Positions 4,293 to 8,746 of a stretch of 64,000 bases of DNA are shown here, in pieces (position 1 is the stretch's first letter; each line of letters starts with the position of its first letter). The position numbers were made by a program, and so were the translations under genes. The notes under the pieces were generated by a model. That model searched no databases and had not been told where the DNA came from. It saw nothing but the letters and a program-made list of their open reading frames with translations. The stretch is from Gaiellaceae bacterium (GTDB lineage: Bacteria > Actinomycetota > Thermoleophilia > Gaiellales > Gaiellaceae), in NCBI GenBank assembly GCA_026002995.1, contig BPGK01000001.1, forward strand, positions 2,419,988 to 2,483,987. Reading direction: 5' to 3'.

Positions 4293-4973
4293 ATGCGCTC
4301 GGCGCTCGTGACCGGCGGCTCCGCGGGAATCGGCCTCGCGCTCGCGCGCATGCTGCGCGCGGAGGGCTACGCGCTCACGCTCGTCGCGCGACGTCCGGAG
4401 CCGCTCGAGGAGGCGGCACGGGAGCTCGATGCCCACGCGGTCGCGGCGAACCTCGCCGATCCGGACGCGTGCGTGCGGGTCGTCGCGGAGCACGCCGAGC
4501 GATACGGCGGCATGGACGTCCTCGTCAACAGCGCGGGCATCGGCATCGGCGGGAGCTTCGCCACGCAGGAGACGAAGCACATCGCGCTCCAGCTCGACGT
4601 GAACCTGCGCGCCACGCTCGTCGTCACGCGGGAGGCGCTCCCGCTCCTCCGCCGCACGCGCGGCCACGTCATCACGCTCGCGTCCATCGCGGGAACCATC
4701 CCGGCGCCCGGACTCGCCGTGTACGGGGCGACGAAGGCCGCGCTCATCGCCTTCACGCGCTCGCTGAACCGCGAGGAAGCCGAGCACGGAGTCCGGGCGA
4801 CGGCGATCTCGCCCGGGTTCGTCGCCACGCGCATGACCGACTGGACCGGGCTCGCCCCCGAGGAACAGATCCAACCCGAGGACATCGCCGAGCTCGTCCG
4901 GACGGTGCTGAAGCTCAGCCCGCGTGCCGTCGTGCCGAACATCGTCGTCGAGCGCGCCGGCGAGGTCGTCTGA
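4293..4973 (+). CDS. Short-chain dehydrogenase/reductase (SDR)
   Basis: This is a 226-residue classical SDR. The ATG at 4293 is chosen because the Rossmann motif TGGSAGIG begins six residues later; the longer upstream frame has no SDR homology. Other family marks are NSAGIG (NAG motif), the catalytic Ser in LASIAG and the YGATK active-site Tyr-xxx-Lys, plus SPGFVATRM near the C-terminus. It is an NAD(P)-dependent oxidoreductase of unknown substrate, most like the fatty-acyl or general SDR types with a short C-terminus. It converges with the sulfurtransferase gene at 4989. Confidence 0.88.
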   Translation: MRSALVTGGSAGIGLALARMLRAEGYALTLVARRPEPLEEAARELDAHAVAANLADPDACVRVVAEHAERYGGMDVLVNSAGIGIGGSFATQETKHIALQLDVNLRATLVVTREALPLLRRTRGHVITLASIAGTIPAPGLAVYGATKAALIAFTRSLNREEAEHGVRATAISPGFVATRMTDWTGLAPEEQIQPEDIAELVRTVLKLSPRAVVPNIVVERAGEVV

Positions 4974-4988
4974 CGGCGCCGCCCGGCC

Positions 4989-5853
4989 TCAGCGCTCGAT
5001 CGGGACGTCGACGAGGTTGCCCCACTCGGTCCACGAGCCGTCGTAGTTGCGCACGTTCTCGTAGCCGAGCAGCTCGTGGAGGACGAACCACGTGTGGGCG
5101 CTCCGCTCGCCGATGCGGCAGTAGGCCCGCACCTCCTTCTCGGGCACGACGCCGCGCGAGACGTACAGCTCGCGGAGCTCGGCGGCGCTGCGGAACGTCC
5201 CATCGTCCCGCACCGCCGAGGTCCACGGGATCGACTGCGCGCCCGGGATGTGGCCGGCGCGGGAGGCGCCTTCCTGCTCGTACCCGGGCGGGGCGATCAG
5301 CTCCCCTGCGTACTCCTGGGGGCTGCGGACGTCGACGAGCGCGATCCGGGGGTCGCGGAGCCCTGCGAGCACCTCGTCGCGTCGCACCCGAATCGACTCG
5401 TCTCGCTCGCGCGCGCGGTAGACGGCGGGCGCGCGCACAGTGGGTGCGGCCGTGAGCTCCATCCCTTCCTCGATCCACTTCTGCCTGCCGCCGTCGAGCA
5501 GCCGCGCGTCGCGGTGGCCGAAGAGCTTCAGAGCACCAGTAGGCGTACGCGGCGAACCAGTTGTTCTTGTCGCCGTAGAGGACGACCGTCGTCTCCTCGC
5601 TGATACCCCGCTCGCCCATGAGCTGCTCGAAGCGCTCCTTCGCGACGACGTCCCGAACCAGCGGGTCCTGGAGGTCGTCGCGCCAGTGCAGCTTCACCGC
5701 GCCCGGGATGTGGCCCTCGTCGTAGAGATCGGGATCCTCGTCCACCTCGGCGACGACGATCTCCGGCGCGCCGAGGCGCTCGGCGAGCCACGGGACGGTG
5801 ACGAGGACGTCCTTCGCGTACTCGGTCGAGCGCTCGGCTGAGGTGCGGGACAC
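4989..5853 (-). pseudogene. Two-domain thiosulfate/3-mercaptopyruvate sulfurtransferase, split by a frameshift
   Basis: The N-terminal rhodanese domain is read from the start at 5853 to about 5533 (VLVTVPWLAERLG, then [17 protein letters not shown]). The C-terminal domain continues in another frame ([12 protein letters not shown], then [10 protein letters not shown] and the active loop [12 protein letters not shown]). The join lies at about 5532, where one extra base separates TGGTGC from CTGAAG. Both halves are otherwise well conserved, including the catalytic Cys and the CRIGERSxHTW loop typical of actinobacterial CysA-type thiosulfate sulfurtransferases. An internal restart near 5462 could yield only the C-terminal domain. 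A single-base sequencing or assembly error is as likely as a real mutation. Confidence 0.85.
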
Positions 5854-5882: not shown

Positions 5883-6803
5883 CTACGTCCGCGCGAGGAG
5901 GTCGTTGACGGCGTTCTCGAGCTCGCTGACCGAGACGACGCCCTCGTAGCGCTCGACGAGCTTCCCCTCCGCGTCGACGAGGAAGGTCCACGGCTCCGTC
6001 TCGAGCCCCCACTCCCGCATCCAGCGGTTGTAGCCCTTGGCCGGGTCGTTGCCCTCGTACACCTCGACGTGGATGAACCGGATGCGCTCGCCCTGGAACC
6101 GCTTGGCGACCTCCTCGACGACGTCCACGACGGGGCCGCACGTCCTGCTCGCGCAGAACCTCGGCGTCGAGAAGGTCACGACGAACGGCACCCCCGCGCG
6201 GATCGAGTCGGCGACGGAGTGACGCAGGAGGAGCTCGTCGGGAGGGGTGCGCGTCGTGATCCGGGCGGCATCGCCGCCGACGGAGGCGAGCGTGGGCGTC
6301 TCCGACCGGGGGACGGCCTCGCCGACGTCGGGGACGGGATCGTCCGCGGCGACGACGACGTTCCCGAGCGCCTGCACGGGGTCGCCGCCCTCGGGCTCCG
6401 CGAGGAGCCAGTAGGTCCCCGGCTCCGTGAGACGGAGGTGTGCGACGTAGATGTGCGTGGCGTCGGCCTGCGAGAGGCCGGGCACGCCGATCCGCTCGAG
6501 CTGCGCCTTCGTCTCGAGGAACGGCGCCTCCTCGAGCGCGCGCGAGACCCAGACCCGCGCGGTCGGGAGCAGGACGGGAGCGCCCTCGGCGTCGAGGACG
6601 AGGAACGACACGCGGACGTCGCCGGGAACGTGCGTCAGCGTCCCCGCGACGACGGCGACGTCGTCGCCCGGGGCGCGCCAGAGCTCCTCGAGCGTCCGTC
6701 CGCCACCAGGAGCGGACTCGCTGGGCGCGGCGGTGTCGCTACCCCCACCGCACCCGACGAGCAGCGTCGAGAGCGCTGCGATCGCGACCGCTGCACGTCG
6801 CAT
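5883..6803 (-). CDS. Lipoprotein with thioredoxin-like domain
   Basis: This 306-residue exported lipoprotein starts at ATG 6803, because MRRAAVAIAALSTLLVGC gives a clean lipoprotein signal with lipobox LVGC; the longer frame has no such context. After a linker comes a beta-rich region (about 35-170), then a thioredoxin-fold domain with FCASRTCGPVVDVV (Cys-x4-Cys rather than CxxC) and EPWTFLVDAEGKLVERYEG, the cis-Pro-side and final strands. It is likely anchored on the outer face of the membrane and acts in thiol exchange or metal delivery. The altered cysteine spacing leaves redox activity unproven. Confidence 0.8.
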   Translation of the reverse strand: MRRAAVAIAALSTLLVGCGGGSDTAAPSESAPGGGRTLEELWRAPGDDVAVVAGTLTHVPGDVRVSFLVLDAEGAPVLLPTARVWVSRALEEAPFLETKAQLERIGVPGLSQADATHIYVAHLRLTEPGTYWLLAEPEGGDPVQALGNVVVAADDPVPDVGEAVPRSETPTLASVGGDAARITTRTPPDELLLRHSVADSIRAGVPFVVTFSTPRFCASRTCGPVVDVVEEVAKRFQGERIRFIHVEVYEGNDPAKGYNRWMREWGLETEPWTFLVDAEGKLVERYEGVVSVSELENAVNDLLART

Positions 6804-6809
6804 GACGCG

Positions 6810-6931: not shown

Positions 6932-7033
6932 CTAGAGGTGACCGTCCGACCAGGACAGGGGGGCGAGCACCTTCCCTGCCCAAGCCGCGACCAGCGCCAG
7001 GCTGACGAGAAGAACCATCAGGCGAGGCTTCAC
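6932..7033 (-). CDS. 33-residue hydrophobic peptide downstream of HTH-TPR regulator (candidate signalling peptide precursor)
   Basis: The GTG at 7033 follows the regulator's TAA by 16 nt and is preceded by a strong Shine-Dalgarno tract (AGAGGAGG, 5 nt spacing), so this very short frame is probably translated. The predicted peptide begins MKPR, has a hydrophobic core LMVLLVSLALVAAWAG, and ends KVLAPLSWSDGHL. That is the plan of a signal-sequence-bearing peptide pheromone precursor, with a positive N-terminus, a hydrophobic stretch and a polar tail. Regulators of the HTH-TPR (RRNPP) type in Firmicutes are paired with just such a downstream gene (Phr, NprX, PapR). In an actinobacterium this is only an inference. 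A simple small membrane protein is the alternative. Confidence 0.6.
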   Translation of the reverse strand: MKPRLMVLLVSLALVAAWAGKVLAPLSWSDGHL

Positions 7034-7049
7034 GGCGACCTCCTCTCTC

Positions 7050-8387
7050 TTAGAAGCGGATTTCAAGGAGCGCCTCTGCGGCGTTCCGGTAGAGACGCGC
7101 GGCCTCGCCCGCGTCACCGCGACGCGCAGCGAGGTCGCCCAGCGCGACCCAGGCCTCCGTTCGGTGGCTGAGCGACGCGAGCTGCTCGGCAGCCGCGTCG
7201 GCAGCCCGGAAGCACTCCTCCGCCTCGTCGAGGAGACCCTGCTCCATCAACGCCCGCCCCAGTACGAGCTGCGATGGAGAGACCTCGTCGAGGAAGTCCT
7301 CCCTACCCTCGAGCAGAGCGAGCGCCTTGCGCGCGCGCTCCTCTGCTTCCTTGTACTCGCCCCGGCGCAGGTGCACCTGGGCGAGACCTTCCAAGACCTG
7401 CGCGACGTCCGCCGGAGAGCCACTCTCGACGGCCCGCTCGAGCGAGGCCTCCAAGTGCTCGACGGCCTTCTCCTCGTCGCCGAGGAGCAGCGTGAGGCCA
7501 CCGAGGTTGAGCAGGAGCCGGCCGACGTTGCGCTCGTCGTTGAGCTCTTGGTAGAGCTCGCGCGCGCGGAGCGCATAGTTGCGCGAGAGCAGCCAGTGCC
7601 CCTCGCGCTGCGCGATGAGCGATGCCTGGAAGTACGTGTTCGCGATCGCCCGGCGATCGCCGACGGCCTGCGCGAGCTCCAGCGCGCGCTCCACGTCTTC
7701 CCGCGCCGCGACGTAGTCGCGCTGACGACGATGGCAGCGGGAGCGCCACCCCAGGATGTCCGCGCGCAGGAGGTCGCATGGGAGGCCGGAGCGCTCCGCG
7801 AGGGCGAGGGCCTCCCCGAGGAGCGCGAGCGCGGTGCCGATGCTCGAGAGCTTGTAGCGGGCGACGCCGAGTCGGAAGAGCACCTCCGCGCGCTCGAGGT
7901 CCGAGAACTGCTCCCCTTCGGCAAGCTCGCGCGCGTGCCGGAGGAGCTCGAGCGCCGCTCGGATGTCACCGAGCTGCTGGAGCGCCCACGACTCGCCGAG
8001 GAGCGCTCGGAGTCGGAGCTCGTCCGATCCCGCGGCCTCGACGGCCGCCCTCGCCTCGGCGAAGGCGTCGAGCGCGCCCTGGTAGTCGTGTGCCTCCGAG
8101 AGCGCCTCGGCGCGCGCGAGCTGCGCGTCCGCCCGCGTCTGCTCCTCGACCGAGACCCCGTGGGCGAGGAACGTCGCGTCGACCCCGAGCCGCTCGGCGA
8201 GCAACGCGATCGTCTCCTGCGTCGGGCGGGTCTTCCCGCGCTCGATCTGGCTGATGTACTCCTTCGAGAAGCGCCCGCCCGCGAGCTCGGTCTGCGTCAG
8301 CCCCGCGGAGAGACGAAGCGCGCGCAGGCGCTCGCCGAGCGAGGCGCCGGTCCGGACGGAGGCGGTCTGGGTGGCGGTCTCGGTCAT
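7050..8387 (-). CDS. XRE-family HTH regulator with TPR sensor region
   Basis: This 445-residue cytosolic regulator has an N-terminal XRE-type helix-turn-helix (about residues 15-75: LGERLRALRLSAGLTQTELA, FSKEYISQIERGKTRP) followed by roughly nine tetratricopeptide-like helical hairpins filling the rest (for example LGESWALQQLGDIRAALELL, GVARYKLSSIGTALALLGEA and LLNLGGLTLLLGDEEKAVEHL). HTH-TPR proteins switch DNA binding when a peptide or protein binds the TPR groove. The next gene is a tiny hydrophobic peptide 16 nt away, as in peptide quorum-sensing modules. The upstream region carries repeated ACTTGACT boxes that could be its own operators. The ligand is unknown. Confidence 0.88.
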   Translation of the reverse strand: MTETATQTASVRTGASLGERLRALRLSAGLTQTELAGGRFSKEYISQIERGKTRPTQETIALLAERLGVDATFLAHGVSVEEQTRADAQLARAEALSEAHDYQGALDAFAEARAAVEAAGSDELRLRALLGESWALQQLGDIRAALELLRHARELAEGEQFSDLERAEVLFRLGVARYKLSSIGTALALLGEALALAERSGLPCDLLRADILGWRSRCHRRQRDYVAAREDVERALELAQAVGDRRAIANTYFQASLIAQREGHWLLSRNYALRARELYQELNDERNVGRLLLNLGGLTLLLGDEEKAVEHLEASLERAVESGSPADVAQVLEGLAQVHLRRGEYKEAEERARKALALLEGREDFLDEVSPSQLVLGRALMEQGLLDEAEECFRAADAAAEQLASLSHRTEAWVALGDLAARRGDAGEAARLYRNAAEALLEIRF

Positions 8388-8424: not shown

Positions 8425-8460
8425 GCTCCCCCGGGAGGGGGATTCGCGCGGCGCGAGTGC
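8425..8460. repeat. Short intergenic element, also found at 30806
   Basis: This stretch begins GCTCCCCCGGGAGG, continues with a CGCGCG core and ends GAGTGC. The same order of blocks, with a few base differences and a shorter centre, occurs at 30806-30837. Both lie in leaders near XRE-type regulator genes. The CCC/GGG part can fold into a hairpin. Confidence 0.4.
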
Positions 8461-8529
8461 AGTCAAGCACAGGCTAGTCGAAATCACTTGACTAAGCTAC
8501 TTGACTTTTCTGGACCTGGCTCCTATAGT
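8461..8529 (+). promoter_or_regulatory. Promoter with tandem ACTTGACT boxes
   Basis: On the plus strand TTGACT (8501-8506) and TATAGT (8524-8529) are separated by 17 bp, an almost perfect vegetative promoter, predicting a start near 8536. ACTTGACT occurs at 8486-8493 and again at 8499-8506 (13-bp period), with an inverted AGTCAAGC at 8461-8468. The second box contains the -35 element, so a protein bound there would block this promoter. The boxes also lie upstream of the minus-strand HTH-TPR gene, suggesting shared or autogenous control by that regulator (inference). Confidence 0.65.
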
Positions 8530-8535
8530 CAGCCG

Positions 8536-8708
8536 CACACCGCACCGACCGGACGCCAGGTCGGATGCGAGGGCACCACCGCCGGATCCGCAGGCGAGTG
8601 CAGGGAGTCCGTGGCTGGGCCGCAGAGCCACGAACACCGACTCGCCTCCCCCGGGAAGGGGTCGCCTCGAACGGAGAACGCCCCCGGAGCCGCAGCCGGG
8701 GGCGTTCT
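8536..8708 (+). ncRNA. Candidate structured small RNA, about 173 nt
   Basis: The interval runs from the predicted start of the promoter at 8501-8529 to a perfect 13-bp terminator-like hairpin at 8675-8708. No convincing reading frame on the plus strand lies inside it. Several helices can be drawn: GACC/GGTC near 8546; a long arm GGCGAGT/ACTCGCC around 8593-8646 enclosing GTGGCT/AGCCAC; and CCCC/GGGG near 8650-8661. The flanking genes are both on the minus strand, so the RNA stands alone. It does not match 4.5S, tmRNA, RNase P or a cobalamin riboswitch by eye. The class is unknown. Confidence 0.5.
8675..8708. terminator. Bidirectional terminator-like hairpin
   Basis: Perfect 13-bp arms (AGAACGCCCCCGG / CCGGGGGCGTTCT) flank an 8-nt loop. 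It ends the candidate small RNA on the plus strand and lies 39 nt after the TetR stop on the minus strand. There is no clear U-tract on either side, as is common in GC-rich actinobacteria. Confidence 0.65.
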
Positions 8709-8746
8709 GCGTCCGGGGCCTGCAGGAGCGCGGCAGCCGGCCGGGC

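Follow-up and report, generated by a model that had tools for sequence, protein, structure and literature searches.

A conserved regulator-peptide gene pair and a divergent structured RNA as a candidate RRNPP-like signalling module in Gaiellaceae

The regulator and the small gene behind it

The window, a 64,000-nucleotide stretch of a Gaiellaceae genome, codes on its minus strand for a regulator with an XRE-type DNA-binding domain and TPR repeats. A very short gene follows directly downstream of it. The features of this gene pair are the following.

7050 to 8387, minus strand: XRE (HTH_3)-TPR regulator of 445 residues, a putative peptide receptor (open reading frame, Pfam, AlphaFold and structure matches)
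7038 to 7044, minus strand: ribosome-binding site AGGAGGT, 4 nt ahead of the GTG (sequence reading)
6932 to 7033, minus strand: propeptide gene of 33 codons, MKPRLMVLLVSLALVAAWAGKVLAPLSWSDGHL, with a GTG start (open reading frame and downstream conservation in 86 of 95 homologues)
6935 to 6955, minus strand: conserved C-terminal motif SWSDGHL, putative mature signal (conservation of the aromatic-x-D-G-x pattern; tandem repeats in L017, L019, L020, L021 and L062)

The TAA stop codon of the regulator gene is followed by a spacer of 16 nt (GAGAGAGGAGGTCGCC) and then by the GTG of the peptide open reading frame (ORF). The initial annotation had described a 445-residue XRE-TPR gene with a 33-codon ORF 16 nt further on and a strong ribosome site, and both the coordinates and the content are borne out.

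Pfam analyses assigned an N-terminal HTH_3 domain (E-value 9e-13) and TPR_12 repeats (6e-31) to the regulator. Its AlphaFold model (pLDDT 92.5) comprises the HTH domain and a TPR superhelix, whose helices pair as about eight to nine repeats. RRNPP/RRNPPA receptors are cytoplasmic and combine an N-terminal HTH domain with 5-9 TPRs in a right-handed superhelix; this architecture is necessary for, but not sufficient to establish, such an assignment, as unrelated TPR proteins match equally well. The top matches in structure comparisons with VIA-align include NprR (Z 30.8 over 353 residues, with 14% identity), RapF (30.3), phage and Bacillus Rap proteins (28.8-30.4), PlcR (3u3w; Z 23.4, with HTH and TPR parts aligned together) and AimR (22.9). 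Eukaryotic TPR proteins score about as high as NprR and the Rap proteins, and the latter matches therefore support the fold and not common ancestry. Similarly, PlcR, ComR, RapJ and RapH were found in profile searches at E-values of 4e-6 to 2e-5, ranked under many generic TPR proteins. The top NCBIfam match is the NsdA family, TPR regulators from Streptomyces and thus also actinobacterial, but the score of 32 bits lies below the cut-off of 75, and a signal peptide partner of NsdA is absent from the literature searched.

Conserved polar residues of the regulator (R208, R215, R217, R221, Q254, S256 and R261) cluster in two adjacent central repeats of the model, on their inner helices, an arrangement compatible with a peptide-binding groove. 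For L002, a fused chain was made by reading through the stop codon between regulator and peptide; in its AlphaFold model the tail has a pLDDT of about 58 and is not confidently docked.

Conservation of the gene pair

A collection of regulator homologues, drawn from GTDB contigs as well as 151 related genomes, comprised 95 distinct proteins, and a downstream ORF was counted if its ribosome site matched over at least 5 nt. Conservation of a small ORF after homologous regulators had been set beforehand as a test of the initial annotation. Such an ORF with a ribosome site is present 3' of the regulator gene in 86 of the 95 homologues, and in 80 it starts at most 40 nt away. In contrast, among 18 readable genes for other XRE-TPR proteins of the same families, approximately 30% identical to the regulator of the window, none has a comparable ORF, with the exception of one weak match.

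Several of the nine remaining homologues do hold a peptide ORF that the automatic rule missed and that we identified by eye. These ORFs, which are outside the count above, include one that ends in GIGDGGSI (L069) and one with GFVDGS approximately 190 nt from the regulator gene (L103). In L111, the gene for a GGWFDGS peptide is inverted relative to that of the regulator with the motif retained, which suggests that selection acts on the pairing and not on the operon. The peptide ORFs evolve as coding sequences, with pN/pS values of 0.38 in the genus of the window and 0.47-0.64 in other clades, thus well below 1 in all seven clades. A chance ORF is ruled out by the conservation, the pN/pS values and the control XRE-TPR genes.

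A wider spread was considered and rejected. Among 346 sampled genomes from the phylum, close relatives were confined to the class of the window, apart from one distant match (32%) in another family (G277). Two homologues at class level (G119 and G129) are devoid of such a small ORF. We also considered a phage origin and rejected it, as the only two matches in a viral collection are distant and to HTH sequences (40% over 66 residues).

The propeptides and their C-terminal motif

The initial annotation had proposed that the peptide consists of a charged start, a hydrophobic core and a polar tail. This plan recurs across the peptides of the homologues: all 85 of 85 have a basic N-terminus, and the hydrophobic core begins around residue 5. 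A subset has AxA sites, with textbook Sec signals, e.g. in L017, L048 and L087 and also in members with motif repeats and in paralogues with GFSDGR tails. Many short members, the hydrophobic peptide of the window included, have no clear AxA cleavage site. In several members, 15-40 residues lie beyond the Sec signal and would be set free.

A DG pair is found within the last 10 residues of 64 of the 86 peptides, compared with 2.9 +/- 1.7 expected from residue shuffling. The most common form of the tail is aromatic or Met-x-D-G-x, e.g. WSDGH, WPDGN, FWDGP, FFDGH, MYDGA, GMSDGG or GFSDGR, and two deep clades have the other tails KGHGGGHMNW and RGFHEW. Tail types are distributed in line with the phylogeny of the regulators, and where a genome has two regulators, their peptides differ in the tail. 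The polar tail APLSWSDGHL that had been singled out at first is conserved in part, as the conserved stretch is shorter and corresponds to SWSDGH(L).

Conservation of the tail exceeds that of the remaining peptide in six of the seven clades and is about equal to it in the last one. The expectation that the hydrophobic part varies around a constant tail holds across the family, where hydrophobic parts differ wholly between clades and the C-terminal motif persists. It holds less clearly within the genus of the window, where the hydrophobic part is almost as constrained as the tail (pN/pS of 0.40 for the hydrophobic part and 0.33 for the tail). In L023, the hydrophobic core has been lost and SWTDGH kept.

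These observations bear on the possibility that the small ORF codes for a membrane-bound micropeptide, which would be retained in the cell and would tether or tune the regulator. The position of the gene in the operon of the regulator, the short hydrophobic members without clear cleavage sites and the similar conservation of both parts in the genus would all be in keeping with such a role. However, the motif alone is found in tandem in five genomes, with three to five copies in L017 (...SMFDGGSAFDGGSAFDGGSMFDGGSMFDGH) and, in similar form, in L019, L020 and L021; in L062, GM(H/Q)DGHG is present four times. Multiplication of the motif alone is unexpected for a small membrane protein. The members with a classical Sec signal and a releasable segment, as well as the constancy of the motif next to wholly different hydrophobic parts, also argue against retention in the membrane, and we regard this explanation as distinctly unlikely. 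Internally repeated propeptides have been documented for NprR, PlcR, AimR and Rap pheromones (PMC9765709). In RRNPP/RRNPPA systems, a propeptide of 10-100 residues is encoded next to the receptor and has its mature signal at or near the C-terminus; in the peptides described here, the C-terminal motif is the putative mature signal.

The peptide might also be an exported product, i.e. a modified peptide or bacteriocin under the control of the XRE-TPR protein, with the motif as the core of the product rather than as a signal. It is small and predicted to be secreted, and its aromatic-x-D-G motif, repeated in some members, recalls certain modified peptides. The spacing of the aromatic residues resembles that of cyclophane-type cores, which would favour this possibility. 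Nevertheless, no modification, immunity or export gene was found among the typed neighbours in the window, the regulator is the sole constant partner of the peptide across clades, and the pairing was kept in L111 when the orientation was flipped. An exported product is thus highly unlikely in our view, and we favour a signal peptide that acts on the regulator.

The divergent RNA and its putative operator

The region between the regulator gene and the next gene harbours additional elements, absent from the initial annotation, on the plus strand.

8461 to 8467, plus strand: operator half-site AGTCAAG upstream of the following two and opposite to them in orientation (sequence; position kept in most genus-level relatives)
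8485 to 8505, plus strand: putative tandem operator CACTTGACTAAGCTACTTGAC (exact match in 35 of 91 genomes, a single one in each)
8501 to 8529, plus strand: predicted sigma-70 promoter TTGACT-17-TATAGT of the divergent RNA (sole promoter match in 2 kb, 0.0 expected)
8531 to 8711, plus strand: conserved structured non-coding RNA, single copy, with no Rfam match (model R1, Rfam negative, fold z -3.5)
8675 to 8708, plus strand: GC-rich 3' terminal hairpin with a loop around GAGCCGCAGCC, likely an intrinsic terminator (fold; 39 of 39 RNAs examined)

The RNA is approximately 180 nt long and divergent from the regulator gene. Its predicted fold is more stable than those of shuffled sequences (z -3.5, with the same median of -3.5 across 37 relatives), and 7 of 11 pairs of the consensus are changed on both sides. 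The motifs ACGCC, CCGCAG(A/G) and CCGCAGC are located in hairpin loops in 33, 29 and 37 of the 37 relatives, respectively, compared with 14-22% with shuffled flanks. The terminal hairpin of the copy in the window lacks a clear T run after it. Some of the RNAs of L051-L056, L042 and L043 carry a pair of consecutive hairpins at the 3' end, both with the GCCGCAG loop; this doubling might give a protein or a target RNA more than one site to bind. In a GC-rich genome, short stretches complementary to GCCGCAG would say nothing about targets.

With the covariance model R1, a full copy was detected in 76 of 151 relatives, never more than one per genome, and copies were detected in 71 of 299 genomes of the class; all of them belong to the family of the window. 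A known Rfam family was excluded, as nothing scored above the gathering threshold and searches of the RNA strand with permissive filters were negative, both for the window and for five relatives.

A comparison of positions showed that the RNA adjoins and diverges from the regulator gene in nearly all genomes. Among 91 genomes, 74 have both, 6 the regulator alone, 2 the RNA alone and 9 neither (Fisher 3e-7). At least two of the six regulator-only genomes (G043 and G068) contain diverged versions of the RNA recognizable by eye. In the two RNA-only genomes, G069 and G041 (RNA at L158 3079-3263 and L159 1897-2071), both regulator and peptide are lost, and the RNA is found beside a gene for a thioredoxin-like lipoprotein. 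An RNA that persists without the regulator has some role, or some lag, of its own.

The sequence upstream of the RNA is CACTTGAYNNNNNNACTTGAC, in which the second ACTTGAC box holds the -35 element. The exact pattern of the tandem boxes occurs in 35 of the 91 genomes, once in each and always 25-26 nt ahead of the RNA. As a control, the reversed pattern was searched for and turned up a single time in the 91 genomes together. The genome of the window has no second site at one mismatch and three unrelated ones at two mismatches. The boxes have decayed in G069 and G041, where the regulator has been lost, which points to the regulator as their user and to the tandem boxes as its putative operator.

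The signalling pair could be real and the RNA have nothing to do with it, as a housekeeping RNA that happens to be encoded in the same intergenic region, a possibility compatible with the peptide half of our preferred explanation. The persistence of the RNA in G069 and G041 speaks for it, and so do paralogous regulators that have a peptide and no RNA. The overlap of the boxes with the -35 element, their single occurrence and their decay after loss of the regulator speak against it, as do the co-occurrence of RNA and regulator and the fact that a sister family has another RNA-like element in the corresponding divergent position. We consider an unrelated RNA rather unlikely and favour an RNA controlled by the regulator.

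The paralogous pairs (L087, L089, L091, L094, L097, L102 and L105) have the tail GFSDGR and a clear Sec signal, and in the three upstream regions read (L160-L162) they lack both a divergent RNA and the TTGAC boxes of the operator. As for the sister family, its order-level members L151-L155, with GFHEW or GFHQW peptides, have TTGAC boxes in the first ~620 nt away from the regulator. They also share a mutually similar but different divergent RNA-like stretch that ends in a long GC hairpin and that model R1 does not match.

The combination of a small hydrophobic peptide and a neighbouring RNA also calls to mind a toxin-antitoxin-like unit, in which a toxic peptide would be kept in check by the regulator or by the RNA. 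Type I systems typically consist of small hydrophobic peptides and nearby RNAs. Here, however, the RNA is encoded divergently, beyond the opposite end of the regulator gene, and is not antisense to the peptide gene, the conserved part of the peptide is its polar C-terminal motif, and the system is inherited vertically as a single copy across a family. Such a unit is therefore scarcely credible.

Other elements of the locus also drew our attention. A hairpin (CTCCCCC...GGGGGAT on the plus strand) in the leader of the regulator gene, at about 8427-8444 of the window, is found upstream of the start codons of most homologues and is a possible leader control element. Downstream of the peptide gene, at 5883-6805, a gene codes for a Thioredoxin_2 lipoprotein. 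This neighbour is present in genus-level relatives, and a thioredoxin-like lipoprotein gene is also what adjoins the regulator-less RNA in L158 and L159; the lipoprotein may be functionally linked to the module. A gene for a two-domain rhodanese (sulfurtransferase) at 4915-5853 is apparently split over two reading frames around 5460-5500, which appears to be a frameshift or an assembly error.

A proposed circuit and related systems

Sequence analyses revealed a conserved gene pair, a motif with repeats, a predicted receptor fold, the RNA and an operator of single occurrence. Together they make it probable that the locus codes for an RRNPP-like module, in which the peptide acts on the regulator and the regulator on one ~180-nt RNA as its main direct output. 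The propeptide of 33 residues would be translated together with the regulator and exported by means of its basic and hydrophobic N-terminus, and cleavage near the C-terminus would free a short peptide around SWSDGH(L). This peptide would build up outside and re-enter through an oligopeptide (Opp-type) transporter to bind the concave face of the TPR superhelix. The XRE domain would bind the tandem ACTTGAC boxes between the divergent genes, with its grip altered by the peptide. The single dedicated RNA, which may have targets in its turn, would be the main direct output, and autoregulation of the regulator-peptide operon is likely. As the -35 element of an apparently strong promoter coincides with the second box, we lean slightly towards repression of the RNA by the regulator, modified by the peptide, over activation. 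The initial proposal of RRNPP-type peptide signalling is thus supported, with binding, secretion and re-import as its predicted steps.

An importer is available in the genome, which encodes five SBP_bac_5 binding proteins and ten matches to oligo_HPY ATPases, both common in bacteria. One group of Opp-type transporter genes (G000:C1:2412493-2417599) is located about 2-8 kb before the start of the window, approximately 10 kb from the regulator gene; its proximity may be a coincidence.

Among known systems, NprR-NprX of the Bacillus cereus group shares with this one an HTH and TPR regulator, a propeptide gene directly downstream and a repeated mature motif in some propeptides, and NprR is the best bacterial structure match. 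The system of the window differs by its phylum, its aromatic-x-D-G-x peptide, the low identity of the regulators and the divergent RNA as apparent target. PlcR-PapR similarly combines an XRE-TPR transcription factor with a short exported propeptide encoded downstream and a C-terminal signal, but PlcR has a large regulon, whereas the exact operator found here occurs once per genome. The phage arbitrium system AimR-AimP-aimX (PMC6536502, PMC6458997) is made of a receptor, a peptide and one dedicated target transcript. Our system has a similarly compact composition but is chromosomal and vertically inherited, and its putative target is a conserved structured RNA that is divergent rather than downstream. 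Rgg-SHP of streptococci also has very short hydrophobic propeptides with no obvious signal-peptidase site. In contrast with the degenerate repeats of Rgg, the TPRs of the window's regulator are canonical, and the order of the regulator and peptide genes is Bacillales-like. The module would work like RRNPP systems and may or may not share their ancestry.

The surveys of RRNPP-type systems that we read deal with Firmicutes only and place almost all of the systems in Bacilli (PMC10075063, PMC9765709, PMC12700828), and reviews mainly attribute actinobacterial signalling to small molecules. The open-licence papers that we searched describe no RRNPP-type or XRE-TPR-peptide system in Actinomycetota, and within that literature we read RRNPP-like peptide signalling as new to this phylum. 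A bolder proposal has about even chances of being correct, namely that this is a chromosomal, family-wide peptide quorum-sensing circuit of Actinomycetota whose sole direct transcriptional output besides itself is one conserved, structured and hitherto undescribed small RNA and whose peptide code (x-x-D-G-x) co-diversifies with the receptor by clade.

The circuit is largely testable with synthetic peptides and purified regulator, with no need to culture the organism. If it is confirmed, the divergent RNA would represent a new RNA family with a single predicted controlling operator, and the co-evolution of specificity could be studied in dozens of natural receptor-peptide pairs, some of them with multi-copy propeptides. 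Peptide signalling would then extend to a soil lineage that is known largely from metagenome-assembled genomes.
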